Made by a program: the position numbers and the translations under genes. A stretch of 20,985 nucleotides of DNA, taken from positions 1 through 20,985 of IMG/VR virus record IMGVR_UViG_3300034093_001684; one strand, given 5' to 3'. The notes under the pieces were generated by a model. That model worked only from the letters and a program-made list of their open reading frames with translations. It had not been told where the DNA came from and did not search any database. Positions 5,346 through 12,469 of the stretch are shown one piece after another. This DNA is from a virus. Every line of letters begins with the position of its first letter. Positions within the stretch are counted from its first letter, which is position 1.

Positions 5346-5946
5346 TCAGTTAACCATGGTTGATGAAAATCATTTGGGTGGATTTATAATTGAAAATGAT
5401 CCAGCAACATTTACACCAAAACTATGGGAATATTTATGTATAAATTATAATATTAAACAAATAGTTGATGTTGGATGTGGTATGGGATATGCTATTAAAG
5501 AATTTTTAAAATATTCTGATGATGTTATTGGCATAGATGGTTCAGAATATGTAAAAAATAATAGTTCATTGAAACAAAATATTATTTTTCATGATTTTAC
5601 AAAAGAAAAATTTGTTGCAAATAAAATATATGATTTAGCATGGTCATCTGAATTTTTAGAACATGTAGAAGAAAAATACATGGATAATTATTTTTCCATT
5701 TTTATGAAATCACAATACTGCGCTGTTACATATGCTGATAAAGGACAGTCTGGGCATCACCATGTAAATTGCAAAGACAAAGATTATTGGATTAACAAAT
5801 TTAAAGAATATGGATTTGAATTTTTAAAAAATGATACAGAAATTTTAAAAAACAAAGCATACGAAGATGCACTGATTTATAACCCGTTATATAACGACAA
5901 CCATTTTTATAATAGAGGTTTATTTTTTAAGAATAATAACCTATGA
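5323..5946 (+). CDS. Class I SAM-dependent methyltransferase
   Basis: A 207-aa Rossmann-fold methyltransferase. Motif I is 'VDVGCGMGY' (residues 48-56), binding SAM. The acidic end of strand 2 is 'VIGIDGS' (68-74), and 'WSSEFLEHVEE' is the motif IV/post-IV segment common in small-molecule methyltransferases. The histidine-rich 'SGHHHVNC' that follows may contribute to the active site. Placed inside the glycosyltransferase cluster, it most likely methylates a sugar or glycan intermediate; this is inferred from context only. ATG 5323 overlaps the upstream gene by 23 bp (ATG 5329 is also possible), and its own stop overlaps the next start (ATGA). Confidence 0.75.
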   Translation: MKMLKITDQLTMVDENHLGGFIIENDPATFTPKLWEYLCINYNIKQIVDVGCGMGYAIKEFLKYSDDVIGIDGSEYVKNNSSLKQNIIFHDFTKEKFVANKIYDLAWSSEFLEHVEEKYMDNYFSIFMKSQYCAVTYADKGQSGHHHVNCKDKDYWINKFKEYGFEFLKNDTEILKNKAYEDALIYNPLYNDNHFYNRGLFFKNNNL

Positions 5947-6920
5947 ACAATAATAAAAATATTTTAATAACAGGTGGGCTTGGTTTTATCGGAACTCATT
6001 GTATAGAACAATGGAAATCTCTTGGATGGAAGGTATGGATAATAGATAACCTATCTTCCAATGCTATTGAAAGTACACATGAATTGGCTGCTGACTCTGA
6101 AGTAATCATATCTGATATTTTAAAAGTTGATTGGGAATCGTTACCCAAATTCGATTTGATCTTGCATTTAGCCTCTCCTGTTGGTCCTGTAGGTGTATTA
6201 AAACACTCAGGAACAATGGCAAGAATAATTTTAGATGATATCTATTGGGCAATAGATGGTGCAAATAAGAATAATTGTCCATTAATTTTTATATCTACTT
6301 CCGAAATTTATGGGTATAGAGAACATAAAAGTTATCTTGAAGAGAAAGATGATAAGGTTTTGCATGGTGAAGTTACAGTACGAAATGAATATGCTACTGC
6401 AAAATTGTTATCCGAAATTGTATTATCTAACCATGCTAAGATAAATTCTTCATTCAAATATCAAATTGTCAGACCATTTAATGTTACAGGAAAATATCAA
6501 CTTCCAGATGGGGGATTTGTTTTGCCACGATTTGTGGAGCAGGCATTAAAGAATGAAGATATAACTGTGTACTATTCTGGACAACAACTCAGAGCATTTA
6601 CATGGGTTAAAGATATTGTAAATGGAATATACCTTGCATCCACAGCACCAGAGCATTTATGGAATCAGGAATGGAATATAGGAAATGAATTGAATGAACA
6701 GACTATTATATATCTTGCAGAAACAGTTAAAAAACTCACATTCAGTACATCAAAAATAATTCATATTGATCCAAAAGAATTGCATGGTCCTCTGTTTTCA
6801 GAAGCACCAGAAAAAATTCCAAATAGTGAAAAAATTAAAACACAACTTGGTTGGAAACCAACTAAATATGTTGACGATGTTATTCGAGAAGTGATTGATT
6901 TTTATAAAGAAAAAAGATAA
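5943..6920 (+). CDS. NAD-dependent sugar epimerase/dehydratase (extended SDR)
   Basis: A 325-aa extended short-chain dehydrogenase acting on nucleotide sugars. It has the NAD-binding 'GGLGFIG' (residues 11-17), the acidic end of strand 2 'IIDNLSS', a 'STSEIYG' strand supplying the catalytic Ser/Thr, and the catalytic pair Tyr150-x-x-x-Lys154 ('YATAK'). 'RPFNVTGKYQ' and 'VLPRFVEQAL' are typical substrate-domain motifs. The pattern is closest to UDP-glucuronate decarboxylase or NDP-hexose 4,6-dehydratase-like SDRs, but the exact reaction is not decidable by eye. It overlaps the previous gene by ATGA and the next by one base. It likely supplies or modifies the sugar donor used by the neighbouring glycosyltransferases. 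Confidence 0.8.
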   Translation: MNNNKNILITGGLGFIGTHCIEQWKSLGWKVWIIDNLSSNAIESTHELAADSEVIISDILKVDWESLPKFDLILHLASPVGPVGVLKHSGTMARIILDDIYWAIDGANKNNCPLIFISTSEIYGYREHKSYLEEKDDKVLHGEVTVRNEYATAKLLSEIVLSNHAKINSSFKYQIVRPFNVTGKYQLPDGGFVLPRFVEQALKNEDITVYYSGQQLRAFTWVKDIVNGIYLASTAPEHLWNQEWNIGNELNEQTIIYLAETVKKLTFSTSKIIHIDPKELHGPLFSEAPEKIPNSEKIKTQLGWKPTKYVDDVIREVIDFYKEKR

Positions 6921-7528
6921 TGACTAGATTACAAGAAATTTTATCAACTATACAAAATGGATTCTTTTTTGAAGCTGGAGCAAATGATGGAGTTGAAGAA
7001 AGTAATACACATTTTTTAGAATTAAATGGGTGGCAGGGTATTTTAGTTGAACCAAATCCATCAAAATATTATCAATGTTCTTTAAATCGAAAAGCCCAAT
7101 CAATACATGGTGCTCTTGTATCAAATACGTATAATGAGCCAACTGTAAAGGGAAATTTTTTAAGAACAGATCGAAATAGTTTAATGTGTTCAATATTTGA
7201 TATTCCTGATTATTTTACAGAACATCAAAAACAAGAAATTTATGGTAAAATAAATGAAGGTGCAGTTGAAGTTCCTGCATTGACATTAGAATATATTTTT
7301 GATACAAATAATGTTAAACATGTAGATTTTTTGTCGTTAGATTTAGAAGGCTATGAAGTTGCAGCACTTTCTGGTTTAAATTTTAATAAAATAAAACCCA
7401 AATATATTTTAATAGAAACAGCAAATAATCCAGATTATCAGCAGTATACTTTAGAGTTTTTGTCTAATAAAGGCTACAGCTATTTTGAAAAAATTTCCGG
7501 TAATGATGATCTTTTTATATTAGAATAA
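6920..7528 (+). CDS. FkbM-family methyltransferase
   Basis: A 202-aa protein with the FkbM-type SAM-dependent methyltransferase layout: 'FEAGANDG' (17-24) as motif I, 'ILVEPNPSKY' (41-50) as the strand-2 acidic motif, and 'LSLDLEGYEVAAL' (138-150), the family's D-x-E-G-x-E signature. FkbM proteins are typically O-methyltransferases and are common in phage and bacterial glycan clusters, where they cap sugars. The ATG shares one base with the preceding TAA. It is one of two FkbM-like genes in the island; the other is at 11879. The acceptor is unknown but is probably a hydroxyl on the island's sugar. Confidence 0.8.
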   Translation: MTRLQEILSTIQNGFFFEAGANDGVEESNTHFLELNGWQGILVEPNPSKYYQCSLNRKAQSIHGALVSNTYNEPTVKGNFLRTDRNSLMCSIFDIPDYFTEHQKQEIYGKINEGAVEVPALTLEYIFDTNNVKHVDFLSLDLEGYEVAALSGLNFNKIKPKYILIETANNPDYQQYTLEFLSNKGYSYFEKISGNDDLFILE

Positions 7529-7543
7529 AAATATGAGTAATAT

Positions 7544-8251
7544 ATGAAAATAATAGCTCCCTGTTTTACAAATAATAAAGAATATGCAAATCCTTTGGTA
7601 AATAGTTTAAAAAAATATTCTCCAGAGTATAGTGATAGTTTAATTTTATATACAGATGGAACTACCAGCACAGATTTTTATCACACTAAAATGTTTCATG
7701 CTGCACAAGCAATGAAAAACATTGATGATGAAATCGTAATTCTTGTAGATGCTTTTGATGTATTAGTAAACAAACCATTAAAAAACATCGAAGAAGATTT
7801 TAAAAAACATGAATGTAAATTATTAATATCCGGAGAAGCAAATTGTTTTCCGTTTAAAGAATACGAAAGTTTTTTATCTTCAAAATCAAATACCAAATTA
7901 AAATTTCCATGTGCAGGTTGTTGGATTGGTTATAGAGAGTATATGATAGAATTGTTTGAAAGTCCTCTTTCTATAGAAAATCATATGACATGGAGAAGAT
8001 TTACTGACCAAGGTTTTATGGAAACTATTTACTACAATTCTTTTCATAACCCATACTTCTCAGTAAAACTTGATACAACTGCAAATATTTTTATTAATAC
8101 ATTTTTACTTAACCCCGGTGAAGATTTTATTATAAATGAAGAATCTAAACAACTTACATTTATAGATACTGATTCTATACCTTATTTTATACATTTTAAT
8201 GGCGATGGAAAAGCACATATGCCGCTTTTTGGAATTAAATATTGTGGCTAA
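7544..8251 (+). CDS. PLOD-like glycosyltransferase (collagen-lysine glucosyltransferase type domain)
   Basis: A 235-aa protein whose motif series matches the glycosyltransferase domain of procollagen-lysine hydroxylase/glucosyltransferases (PLOD/LH3) and their viral relatives: 'ILVDAFDVL' (66-74, metal-binding acidic residues), 'LISGEANCFPF' (94-104), 'CAGCWIGY' (123-130), 'FTDQGFM' (153-159) and the C-terminal 'FIHFNGDGK' (215-223). This region transfers glucose in the animal enzymes; here donor and acceptor are unknown. The hydroxylase part is absent. The ATG follows the previous stop after 15 bases, with no strong Shine-Dalgarno site. The last codons overlap a CTAAATA motif at 8248-8254. 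Confidence 0.75.
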   Translation: MKIIAPCFTNNKEYANPLVNSLKKYSPEYSDSLILYTDGTTSTDFYHTKMFHAAQAMKNIDDEIVILVDAFDVLVNKPLKNIEEDFKKHECKLLISGEANCFPFKEYESFLSSKSNTKLKFPCAGCWIGYREYMIELFESPLSIENHMTWRRFTDQGFMETIYYNSFHNPYFSVKLDTTANIFINTFLLNPGEDFIINEESKQLTFIDTDSIPYFIHFNGDGKAHMPLFGIKYCG

Positions 8252-8315: not shown

Positions 8316-10931
8316 ATGCAAAAAATCGTGATTACAGGTGGATTGGGATATATTGGTTCAGAATTATGCAAACTATATTCTGGCGAAACAAGATTTAAAA
8401 ATATTACAGTAGTAGATAGCAGATTTGTCTCTGAGCGCGTAAAACAATTACGTGACTGGGGGTTTAATTATATCCAAGCATCTATTTTAGATGAAGACAT
8501 TATTTCTAATATTATTAAAGATGCAGATGTTGTAATTCATCTAGCAGGTGTAACTGATGTTGCTTATGTTAAAACACAAGCAGATCCAGAAAAAGATAAA
8601 CTCATTACAGATACTGCTGTATTGGGTACAAGAAACATAATAAACAATGTAAAAAAAGAATGCAGGATTATATTTCCATCAACTCACGTTGTTTATGAGG
8701 GCTTTGAAGAAACTACCACAGATATTTCAGAAACTGTTGAACCGTGTCCAGTCTTAACCTATGCACAAGGAAAAGTTGCATCTGAAAAAGATTTTTTTGA
8801 GTCTGATAAAAATTATGTAATTTTAAGATTAGCTTCTGTATATGGATATTCCACTGATACTATGCGTATTGGTATTATGCCAAATTTGTTTGCTAAAACC
8901 ACTTCTTTAAATGGAACGATTAAATTATTTTCTGGTGGTATTCAATTAAAAAGTTTGGTTCCACTACTAGATGTAGCACGTTGTATGAAGTTTATGGCAG
9001 AGAATAAAAAGATAAACAGAGAACTATTTCACCTTTCTAGCGAAACCGTAACAGTAAAAGGTGTTGCTGATATATGTAAAGAAATTAATCCACTTGTAAC
9101 ACTTGTAGAAACAGATGATGAAATTCCAAATCTTGGTTATACAATTTCTAATAAAAAGTTAATTTCAACAGGTTTTACCTTTAGATATGCTTTAAAACCA
9201 GTAATGGAAGATATGATCAAAAAGTGGTCTGCTAAACCAGTAAATACAGAATTGGAATTTATTGATAGAGGTGGAAAAGAATTTGTAGATTCTCGTGGTA
9301 GAATTTTAAATTATGAATTAACAGAACCTATTAATTTAATAGGATATATTGAATCCAAAAAGGGAACAGTTAGAGCAAATCATTATCACCCAATACAAGA
9401 GCAAAAGTGTCTTTTGATAAAGGGACAATATATAAGTGTTGTTAAAGACCTATCCACACCCAATGCAAAGATTGAAACTAAGTTAATCAATGAAGGTGAT
9501 GTTGCTGTCATCCAACCAAATGTTGCACACGCAATGATTTTTACCGAAGATTCAATATTTTTAAATCTAGTTCGTGGTGAAAGAGAACATGAAAACTATG
9601 GTGTTACGCATACTATGCCATACACCCTGGTAACTGAAGAATTAAAAAATACTCTTTTGGCAGTATATAAGAAAACTTGTAGATGCTGTGGAAACAAACA
9701 TTTTGAAAGAGTTGTTAGTTTAGGAGAAAGTCCATTAGCCAATAATTTAAAAAATTCTGAAACAGAAATATGTGAAATGTTTCCTTTGGAAATGAATTAT
9801 TGTATTAAGTGTCATAATTGCCAACTTTCTGTTGCCATACCATCAGAAAAAATGTTTGACAACTACCTTTATGTTTCTTCAACAACATCTACGTTTAGAA
9901 AACACTTTGAAGATGCTGCAAAACAATATATCAAAGATTATAATTTGAATGAGGATAATTTTGTTATCGATATTGGAAGTAATGATGGTGTTGGTCTACT
10001 TCCATTTAAAGAAAGAGGTATCAAAGTTTTAGGTATTGAGCCAGCTAAAAATATTTCAAAAATGGCAAATGATGCAGGTATTGAAACAATCAATTCATAT
10101 TTTAATTTAGCGATAGCAGATGATATTATTAAATCTTATGGAAAAGCAGATATTATAACAGCATCAAATGTTTTTGCCCATGCTGATAATTTATCTGAAA
10201 TTGCCCATGCAGCATTAAAAACCCTAAAGGATGATGGAGTATTTATTGTAGAGGTTCAATATTTAAAAGATACTATTAAAGATTTAACTTTTGATAATAT
10301 TTATCATGAACATTTTAATTATTGGAGTGTAACTTCTTTAAATAATTTTGTGAATAATCTTGGGTTTAAGCTCACCAAGGTAGAGTCAGTAAATACACAT
10401 GGTGGTTCATTACGAGTGTTTATAACAAAAAATTTAAATAAACCTACACACTCAAGCGTTGGTGAATATTTAAAACAAGAAAATGAATTTGGTTTAAATT
10501 CGTTTGAAGTTTATAAAAAATTTGGAGAAGATGTTCTTACGATTAAAAATTCAATTAATAAAAATTTTAACTTATTAAAATCCAAATACAAAACTCTTTG
10601 TGCCTATGGTTCACCTGCAAAAGCTACAACATGTTTAAATTACTATGGAATTGATAATAATACAATATCTTACACTGTGGATGATAATCCAATGAAAACC
10701 GGTAAATATATTCCGGGCGTAAATATTAAAATTGAAAATAAACAATATTTTTTAGATAATTTACCAGATGCCGTTATAGTTTTAGCTTGGAATTTTTATG
10801 ATCATATCAAAGCAAATAATCAATCTCTAATTGATAATGGGGTTGAATTTATCAACATAAAAGATCTTGAAAATAAAAACGATATGAATTATAAAAATCT
10901 ACAAACAAAGTATCACACATATTTACAGTAA
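8316..10931 (+). CDS. Trifunctional SDR / cupin / sugar C-methyltransferase fusion
   Basis: An 871-aa protein with three sugar-nucleotide enzymes in one chain. Residues 1 to about 305 are an extended SDR: GGLGYIG (8-14) and Tyr149-x-x-x-Lys153. About 315-440 form a cupin with 'RANHYHPIQEQK' (353-364), resembling the cupin half of CapF-type epimerase/reductases. About 455-870 form a NovU/TylC3-type C-methyltransferase: an N-terminal zinc site (Cys455, Cys458, Cys499, Cys502), SAM motif 'IDIGSNDG' (551-558), 'YHEHFNYWS' (663-671) and a C-terminal 'GSPAKATT' domain (765-772). The combination suggests C3-epimerisation, C4-reduction and C-methylation to make a branched deoxysugar. I chose ATG 8316 because AGGA lies 8 bases upstream; ATG 8307 has no such site. 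The reading frame is continuous, with no sign of a frameshift artefact. Confidence 0.85.
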   Translation: MQKIVITGGLGYIGSELCKLYSGETRFKNITVVDSRFVSERVKQLRDWGFNYIQASILDEDIISNIIKDADVVIHLAGVTDVAYVKTQADPEKDKLITDTAVLGTRNIINNVKKECRIIFPSTHVVYEGFEETTTDISETVEPCPVLTYAQGKVASEKDFFESDKNYVILRLASVYGYSTDTMRIGIMPNLFAKTTSLNGTIKLFSGGIQLKSLVPLLDVARCMKFMAENKKINRELFHLSSETVTVKGVADICKEINPLVTLVETDDEIPNLGYTISNKKLISTGFTFRYALKPVMEDMIKKWSAKPVNTELEFIDRGGKEFVDSRGRILNYELTEPINLIGYIESKKGTVRANHYHPIQEQKCLLIKGQYISVVKDLSTPNAKIETKLINEGDVAVIQPNVAHAMIFTEDSIFLNLVRGEREHENYGVTHTMPYTLVTEELKNTLLAVYKKTCRCCGNKHFERVVSLGESPLANNLKNSETEICEMFPLEMNYCIKCHNCQLSVAIPSEKMFDNYLYVSSTTSTFRKHFEDAAKQYIKDYNLNEDNFVIDIGSNDGVGLLPFKERGIKVLGIEPAKNISKMANDAGIETINSYFNLAIADDIIKSYGKADIITASNVFAHADNLSEIAHAALKTLKDDGVFIVEVQYLKDTIKDLTFDNIYHEHFNYWSVTSLNNFVNNLGFKLTKVESVNTHGGSLRVFITKNLNKPTHSSVGEYLKQENEFGLNSFEVYKKFGEDVLTIKNSINKNFNLLKSKYKTLCAYGSPAKATTCLNYYGIDNNTISYTVDDNPMKTGKYIPGVNIKIENKQYFLDNLPDAVIVLAWNFYDHIKANNQSLIDNGVEFINIKDLENKNDMNYKNLQTKYHTYLQ

Positions 10932-10940
10932 GGTTAGATT

Positions 10941-11882
10941 ATGAATTGCTTAGTAACAGGTGGAGCAGGTTTTATAGGTTCAAATTTAGTTGACAAATTA
11001 ATTGATAGTGGACATAACGTTACTGTAATTGATAACGAATCGTCCGATGCACATGATCAGTTTTACTGGAATGAAAAGGCAAATAATTACAAGTATAATA
11101 TTTGTGATTATGAAATGTGCTCCGATGTCTTTGAAAGACACCAACCAGATATAGTATTTCACATTGCTGCAGAAGCAAGAATCCAGCCATGCATCATAGA
11201 TCCCTTAAAGGCAGTGAAAGCAAATGTAGTTGGAACTGCCACAATATTAGAATTATCTAGAAAACATAAAGTTAAACGAGTAGTATATTCATCAACTTCT
11301 TCTGCATATGGATTAAAAAACACACCACCATTAAACGAATATATGCCAAATGATTGTCTCAATCCTTATTCTGTAACTAAAACATCTGGTGAAGAATTGT
11401 GTAAAATGTATTCTAAATTGTATAATTTAGAAACAATAATTTTTAGATATTTTAATGTTTATGGAGAAAGACAACCACTCAAAGGGCAATATGCTCCAGT
11501 TGTTGGTATTTTTAAAAGACAAAAAAATGCTAGTGAACCCATGACCATAGTAGGAGATGGAGAACAAAGAAGAGATTTTACTCATGTTTCAGATGTTGTC
11601 TCCGCAAATATAATGGCAGCAACTAAAGAATTTGATGAATGGCAAGTAAATGGCTCGGAAAATAAAATATATCAGTATGGGCAAATATATAATGTTGGTA
11701 CAGGTACAAACTATTCTATAAATCAAGTTGCTGAAATGGTTGGTGGACCAACGACCAATATTCCATCTCGATCTGGTGAATCAAGAATAACATTAGCAAA
11801 TATATCAAAAATCCAAAGAGAAATAGGTTGGTCTCCAAAAATAAAATTAGAAGACTGGTTAAAAAAGAAAGAATTAATATGA
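10941..11882 (+). CDS. NAD-dependent epimerase/dehydratase (GalE/WbpP-like SDR)
   Basis: A 313-aa extended SDR. 'GGAGFIG' (7-13) binds NAD, 'VIDNESS' (29-35) closes strand 2, 'SSTSSAYG' (117-124) carries the catalytic Ser/Thr, and Tyr143-x-x-x-Lys147 ('YSVTK') is the catalytic pair. 'FRYFNVYGERQ', 'GDGEQRRDFTHV' and 'YNVGTGTNYS' are the canonical substrate-domain motifs of UDP-glucose/GlcNAc 4-epimerases and related enzymes; C4-epimerisation is the most likely activity. Length matches the family. AAGG at 10931-10934 precedes the ATG, and the stop overlaps the next start by ATGA. It likely sets the stereochemistry of a donor sugar in the pathway. Confidence 0.85.
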   Translation: MNCLVTGGAGFIGSNLVDKLIDSGHNVTVIDNESSDAHDQFYWNEKANNYKYNICDYEMCSDVFERHQPDIVFHIAAEARIQPCIIDPLKAVKANVVGTATILELSRKHKVKRVVYSSTSSAYGLKNTPPLNEYMPNDCLNPYSVTKTSGEELCKMYSKLYNLETIIFRYFNVYGERQPLKGQYAPVVGIFKRQKNASEPMTIVGDGEQRRDFTHVSDVVSANIMAATKEFDEWQVNGSENKIYQYGQIYNVGTGTNYSINQVAEMVGGPTTNIPSRSGESRITLANISKIQREIGWSPKIKLEDWLKKKELI

Positions 11883-12469
11883 ATAAATTACTTGATCTAG
11901 GAGCACATACTTTTGAAGGTATAAATCATTTATTACACAGAGGTATTATAGATTCTTCTTACGGTATATACAGTTTTGAACCAAATCCAACTGTTTATAA
12001 TAAAGCATTGAAAAAACTTGAAGAAAATGCAAAAAAATTTCAATATTTAAATTTATATGATTATGCTGTTGGCAACAAAGATGAAGAAGTTGTATTTCAT
12101 TTAGATGAAAGTAAGGTTAGTGAAGCATGTAATATCCTTGATCAACCTCCAAATTTAAAAGAATTGTGGCAACGCCCGGAATGGAATTGGACCCAAATTA
12201 ATGTGAAATGCATTTCTGCAAAAACTCTTTTTGAATTGTGTGATATACAAGCAAATGATTATGTAAAAATAAAATGTGATATTGAAGGTGCAGAATTTGA
12301 ATTTTTAAAAGATTTATTAAATAATAAAGATTTATCTATGGTCAAGCAACTTATTGTAGAATGGCATGATGGTTTTTGGTATGATAATAGAGAACCAAAG
12401 ATAAAAGAAAAGTATGAATTAACTAATGCATTTTTAAGTAAAAATATTCCAATACTAGAATGGCATTAA
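11879..12469 (+). CDS. FkbM-family methyltransferase
   Basis: A 196-aa SAM-dependent methyltransferase. 'LLDLGAHTFEG' (4-14) is motif I, 'YSFEPNPTVY' (31-40) the strand-2 motif, and 'KCDIEGAEFEFLK' (132-144) the D-x-E-G-x-E signature typical of FkbM proteins. The sequence between 'SKVSEACN' and 'VKCISAKTL' also follows FkbM order. The start is ATG 11879, giving a 4-bp ATGA overlap with the upstream epimerase; the frame stays open upstream to a GTG at 11828, but that would overlap the preceding gene by 55 bp. It is the last gene of the glycan island. It probably O-methylates a sugar; the target is unknown. Confidence 0.8.
   Translation: MNKLLDLGAHTFEGINHLLHRGIIDSSYGIYSFEPNPTVYNKALKKLEENAKKFQYLNLYDYAVGNKDEEVVFHLDESKVSEACNILDQPPNLKELWQRPEWNWTQINVKCISAKTLFELCDIQANDYVKIKCDIEGAEFEFLKDLLNNKDLSMVKQLIVEWHDGFWYDNREPKIKEKYELTNAFLSKNIPILEWH

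Follow-up and report, generated by a model that had tools for sequence, protein, structure and literature searches.

A fused SDR-cupin-C-methyltransferase protein shared by a T4-like phage and SAR11 bacteria is predicted to form a methyl-branched sugar

Does one reading frame of a T4-like phage really combine three enzymes of sugar-nucleotide metabolism, and which sugar might such a protein make? The question was raised by a first-pass annotation of a virus record of 20,985 bases, which was analyzed over its whole length and will be referred to as the window. The frame is open on the plus strand to a stop at 10931 from either of two in-frame ATG codons (8307 and 8316), and the protein encoded by 8316-10931 has 871 amino acids. 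As the annotation had proposed, an extended SDR, a cupin and a NovU/TylC3-type C-methyltransferase follow one another in this order without interruption. Pfam profiles above their cut-offs were obtained for the SDR (residues 1-308, 8316-9239; Epimerase PF01370 at 4-231, 2e-22) and for the three parts of the methyltransferase, namely the zinc-binding domain PF08421 (455-514, 9678-9857; 7e-12), the SAM-binding domain PF13489 (544-688, 9945-10379; 1e-16) and the C-terminal domain PF08484 (694-846, 10395-10853; 1e-41). For the cupin (residues 309-450, 9240-9665), the Cupin_2 match remained below its cut-off (E 0.002); in AlphaFold models (mean pLDDT 86), this region is predicted as a beta-barrel.

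The sequence motifs named in the annotation are present, and an alignment with 39 relatives clearly demonstrated that the active-site residues of all three enzymes are intact in the window protein and invariant in the relatives, so that the loss of catalytic residues was observed in none of the domains. Approximately 80 non-identical fusion genes were found in phages and bacteria, which excludes a fusion produced by chance or by assembly. The triple fusion in one frame is thus confirmed, with an SDR of the extended type, a cupin that is probably CapF-like and a C-methyltransferase of NovU/TylC3 type that is complete, a novel architecture assembled from known kinds of enzymes. We found no description or characterization of it in open-access papers, and it is apparently undescribed so far.

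The SDR carries the glycine motif G8xxG11xxG14, S122/T123 and Y149xxxK153, and the glycines as well as S122, T123, Y149 and K153 do not vary among the 39 relatives. Its closest relative of known structure is Cj1427, the GDP-heptose C4-dehydrogenase of C. jejuni, by profile (E 2.5e-29) as well as by structure comparison (VIA Z 35.6), with approximately 300 residues aligned at 23% identity; many GalE-like structures score nearly equally. Cj1427 uses tightly bound NAD(H) to oxidize GDP-heptose at C4 and passes the 4-keto product to a cupin epimerase (PMC10680097), and enzymes of this type recycle the tightly bound NADH by means of alpha-ketoglutarate. In contrast to the window protein, Cj1427 stands alone, its cupin partner is encoded by a separate gene and a C-methyltransferase is lacking. 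An NDP-hexose 4,6-dehydratase of the RmlB/RfbG type was ruled out for the SDR, as the score against the RmlB equivalog TIGR01181 was 53 bits with a cut-off of 365 bits and the Asp-Glu pair of the 4,6-dehydratases is missing (STHVVY compared to STDEVYG in a phage RmlB).

The resemblance of SDR plus cupin to CapF, which the annotation had pointed out, holds for the architecture and not for the nearest kinship of the SDR. CapF (Cap5F of S. aureus) likewise consists of an N-terminal extended SDR followed in a single chain by a cupin with an NHxH motif, among solved structures it is the one whose alignment covers SDR and cupin together (Foldseek), and it gave the best, though weak, PDB sequence match of the cupin (E 0.13). 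However, identity is only ~15%, and CapF lacks a methyltransferase and acts on a UDP-N-acetyl sugar; moreover, profile and structure comparison both place the SDR nearer to the C4-dehydrogenase Cj1427 than to the reductase domain of CapF. In the cupin, H356, H358, Q363 and H405 are candidate metal-site residues, and the three histidines are invariant in the 39 relatives. A weak likeness to FdtA-type ketoisomerases (E 0.05) was detected in one SAR11 copy.

The methyltransferase part resembles sugar C3-methyltransferases whose structures have been solved, namely MtmC (4rv9, E 1e-66), KijD1 and TcaB9, with Foldseek TM scores to the target of 0.90-0.93, an rmsd of 1.8-2.0 and 29-31% identity. These enzymes show the same three-part arrangement and the same catalytic positions, whereas they are stand-alone proteins of antibiotic pathways and were solved with dTDP-sugars. 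The positions mutated in crystals of TcaB9 (Y76, H181, Y222, E224 and H225) correspond to Y517, H622, Y663, E665 and H666, the last three within the YHEH motif at 663-666; all five are invariant in the 39 relatives, and the SAM-binding domain additionally contains the motif IDIGSNDG. The zinc cysteines (C455, C458, C499 and C502) are present in the window protein and lost in five of the 39 relatives. Zinc-domain cysteines are missing in the phage copies L110, L113, L118, L120 and L122, in which the catalytic residues are all kept.

The annotation had regarded the triple fusion as unusual for a phage. A peptide-pattern scan of ~85,000 bacterial and archaeal species genomes, which detects close relatives only, gave matches exclusively in Pelagibacteraceae and Ca. 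Actinomarina, and in a sample of 147 Pelagibacteraceae genomes 67 carried at least part of the fusion, ~60 of them nearly at full length. About four out of ten sampled SAR11 species possess the gene at a fixed chromosomal site. Within the Actinomarina family, the SDR-cupin part is encoded by four of 42 genomes, three of which contain the fused form only. Full-length fusions in viruses amounted to 35 distinct ones, from viral contigs and one 642-kb phage genome. No fusion was seen in 385 Alphaproteobacteria and 296 Actinomycetota, when the SAR11 and Actinomarina centre genomes are set aside; the methyltransferase alone was matched, nearly always in frames of ~400-500 residues. Searching 398 Pseudomonadota with the SDR-cupin part yielded no further fused copy. 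A phage-specific fusion is ruled out by the chromosomal copies in SAR11 and in Actinomarina; the architecture is widespread within SAR11 and among aquatic phages.

Where the contig is long enough, the SAR11 fusion is located nearly always between clpX-lon and the nuo operon (nuoABCD), with rare exceptions (e.g., L014 and L095). A GT17 glycosyltransferase gene is its direct neighbour in 29 of 45 bacterial and in six of 35 phage loci. Since a SAR11 genome contains ~2 GT17 genes, adjacency by chance should be rare; the bacterial loci are, however, related by descent. No dehydratase gene was found beside the fusion at the SAR11 lon-nuo locus. Co-occurrence of RmlB or RfbG within SAR11 genomes was dropped as a pointer to the nucleotide, because both associate with the fusion as well as with each other and genome completeness is therefore a confounder. 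Among the phages, RmlB is encoded two genes downstream of the fusion in L144, and a true RmlB is also present in L146 and in phages of the L010 type. RmlB above the cut-off was absent from 16 of 20 phage records searched, many of them fragments; the 642-kb genome and the majority of the long phage contigs likewise lacked it. In phages of the L010 type, the genes for RmlB and an RmlA-like protein lie at a distance from the fusion, with neither RmlC nor RmlD beside them. In such phages (L175:2051-6879), RmlB, the RmlA-like enzyme and an RfbH-like 3-dehydrase are clustered ~44 kb from the fusion, possibly representing a phage dideoxysugar pathway.

Within the window, the fusion belongs to a sugar cassette, which is followed by the late sigma factor, gp46, the sliding clamp and both clamp-loader genes; gp46, considered as a pointer to the host, reaches at best 40% identity, to cyanophages. 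All members of the cassette discussed here lie on the plus strand. They comprise two glycosyltransferases (PF03407 and a GT47 exostosin, 1385-2907), a separate NDP-sugar epimerase/decarboxylase-like SDR (5943-6920), an FkbM-type methyltransferase (6920-7528), a glycosyltransferase directly upstream of the fusion (7544-8251), a separate GalE-like NDP-sugar epimerase (10941-11882) and a second FkbM-type methyltransferase downstream (11828-12469), so that the fusion is flanked on both sides by separate FkbM genes. Glycosyltransferase-rich cassettes are the setting of the fusion in the window and in its relatives. No 4,6-dehydratase is encoded within the 20,985 bases. The glycosyltransferase at 7544-8251 resembles the glycosyltransferase domain of collagen-lysine (PLOD) enzymes. 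In two sibling T4-like phages (L151 and L154), a stand-alone methyltransferase and a different SDR are found just upstream of gp55-gp47-gp46, at the place occupied in the window by the fusion cassette, which points to an exchangeable sugar cassette.

A tree built from the methyltransferase part places every fused form in one clade (support 100), within which SAR11 forms a clade of its own with the phages adjoining and Actinomarina outside. On these sequences, the fusion most simply arose once. A close chromosomal donor of the phage gene was not supported, as the phage sequences group next to those of SAR11 but apart from them. The nearest unfused methyltransferases, from other alphaproteobacteria, have a homologous cupin gene and sometimes an SDR gene next to them and are therefore probable descendants of the unfused state. 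Partial forms occur as well. SDR-cupin proteins without the methyltransferase (~67% identity) are encoded by the phages L142, L143 and L161, the two parts are split into overlapping genes in L145, and the methyltransferase alone stands beside a different SDR in L149 and L151-L154. Actinomarina G1240 keeps an intact fusion and a second copy (L187:1501-2919) that has lost the methyltransferase by an in-frame deletion and now consists of SDR-cupin, a remnant and the original C-terminus.

What would such a protein make? CapF epimerizes by its cupin and then reduces by its SDR (PMC5393024), and TylC3-type enzymes methylate C3 of NDP-4-keto sugars (PMC3539893). From these precedents we infer a trifunctional enzyme for the final steps of a C-methyl-branched NDP-sugar pathway, starting from an NDP-4-keto sugar and serving surface glycans, a reading which we favour with moderate confidence; the product is probably a rare methyl-branched sugar. 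The substrate would most simply be NDP-4-keto-6-deoxyhexose, supplied by a separately encoded phage or host 4,6-dehydratase, possibly RmlB. The methyltransferase part would then use SAM to methylate the carbon beside the ketone (C3); epimerization of an alpha carbon, either C3 or C5, would fall to the cupin and reduction of the ketone at C4 to the SDR. Transfer of the branched sugar to a surface glycan might be catalyzed by a glycosyltransferase, namely GT17 in SAR11 and in several phages or one of the others encoded in the window, and the phage would likely benefit from altering the glycan of the host surface, or of its own virion, during infection. Dehydratase, C3-methyltransferase and 4-ketoreductase steps have been proposed for virenose/mycarose-type pathways (PMC3539893), in which they are carried out by separate proteins, whereas the window protein would unite three steps in one chain.

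This pathway tail, which the annotation had suggested as mycarose-like and complete, is plausible in its chemistry; the dehydratase that would feed it is not encoded in the window. In its favour are the intact residues of all domains, the kinship to C3-methyltransferases with the invariant TcaB9 positions, and the alignment of CapF, an epimerizing and reducing enzyme, over SDR and cupin. The cupin gene adjoining the nearest unfused methyltransferases in other bacteria provides a Rosetta-stone argument, and RmlB in some fusion phages, the glycosyltransferase-rich cassettes and the adjoining GT17 genes point in the same direction. On the other hand, a 4,6-dehydratase is missing from the SAR11 locus and RmlB from most long phage contigs, the SDR is closer to a C4-dehydrogenase than to the CapF reductase, the co-occurrence in SAR11 is confounded, and the RfbH-like enzyme of the L010-type phages could consume the RmlB product.

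The same likeness to Cj1427, a C4-dehydrogenase feeding a cupin epimerase, would allow a cycle of oxidation, methylation and reduction without any dehydratase. The SDR, with tightly bound NAD, would oxidize C4 of an ordinary NDP-hexose or heptose, cupin and methyltransferase would act on the 4-keto intermediate, and the SDR would reduce C4 again, giving a branched, non-deoxy sugar from one gene. Such a self-sufficient cycle would agree with the SAR11 gene being kept at lon-nuo with no dehydratase beside it, and with the lack of RmlB above the cut-off in most phages; nevertheless, several phages do possess RmlB, GalE-like structures score almost as high as Cj1427, and the characterized methyltransferases were solved with dTDP-sugars, and we consider it a serious but less likely alternative. 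Its boldest form, in which one polypeptide would branch ordinary NDP-sugars in a closed cycle, its gene being maintained on the SAR11 chromosome and serving phages as a one-gene tool for rewriting surface glycans, appears unlikely to us.

The partial forms can also be read differently, with SDR-cupin making an epimerized and reduced sugar like CapF and the methyltransferase acting on a different intermediate, or on the same one only in some backgrounds, so that fusion would mainly secure co-expression or co-inheritance. The phages with SDR-cupin alone, the Actinomarina copy after methyltransferase loss and the methyltransferases beside a different SDR are in line with this. However, the single origin, the invariance of all three active sites and the fact that bacteria and phages have long kept the fusion entire, at 50-60% identity, suggest one pathway, and separate branches are improbable. 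A decayed or scaffold protein with one catalytically dead domain might be suspected from the relatives that have lost zinc cysteines; since the window protein has these cysteines and the catalytic residues are invariant even in cysteine-less relatives, we regard decay as highly improbable.

SAR11 bacteria belong to the most abundant cell lineages of the ocean, and little is known about the chemistry of their surface. The presence of the predicted three-step enzyme in both SAR11 and diverse phages suggests that SAR11 glycans contain a methyl-branched sugar and that phages make the same one. In addition, the fusion would offer a compact biocatalyst for the production of branched NDP-sugars.

Further variants were observed. 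A frame of 1124 amino acids (L164:5992-9366) continues the order SDR, cupin and C-methyltransferase with a fourth domain, an FkbM methyltransferase of the kind encoded separately at 6920-7528 in the window, which suggests that the product may also be O-methylated. In L123:6001-8553 the fusion is interrupted by three in-frame stops; recoding of stop codons was rejected, as all three stop types occur within a frame-shifted stretch, and the broken copy is probably due to sequencing error. Finally, the predicted structure of a Klosneuvirus KNV1 protein annotated as 'Methyltransferase' (A0A1V0SJ68, BFVD, 743 amino acids) aligns along the whole fusion (878 columns, E 3.7e-48). At 21% identity and 128 amino acids shorter, it is, as judged from predicted structure, perhaps an independent or cupin-less relative of the fusion.
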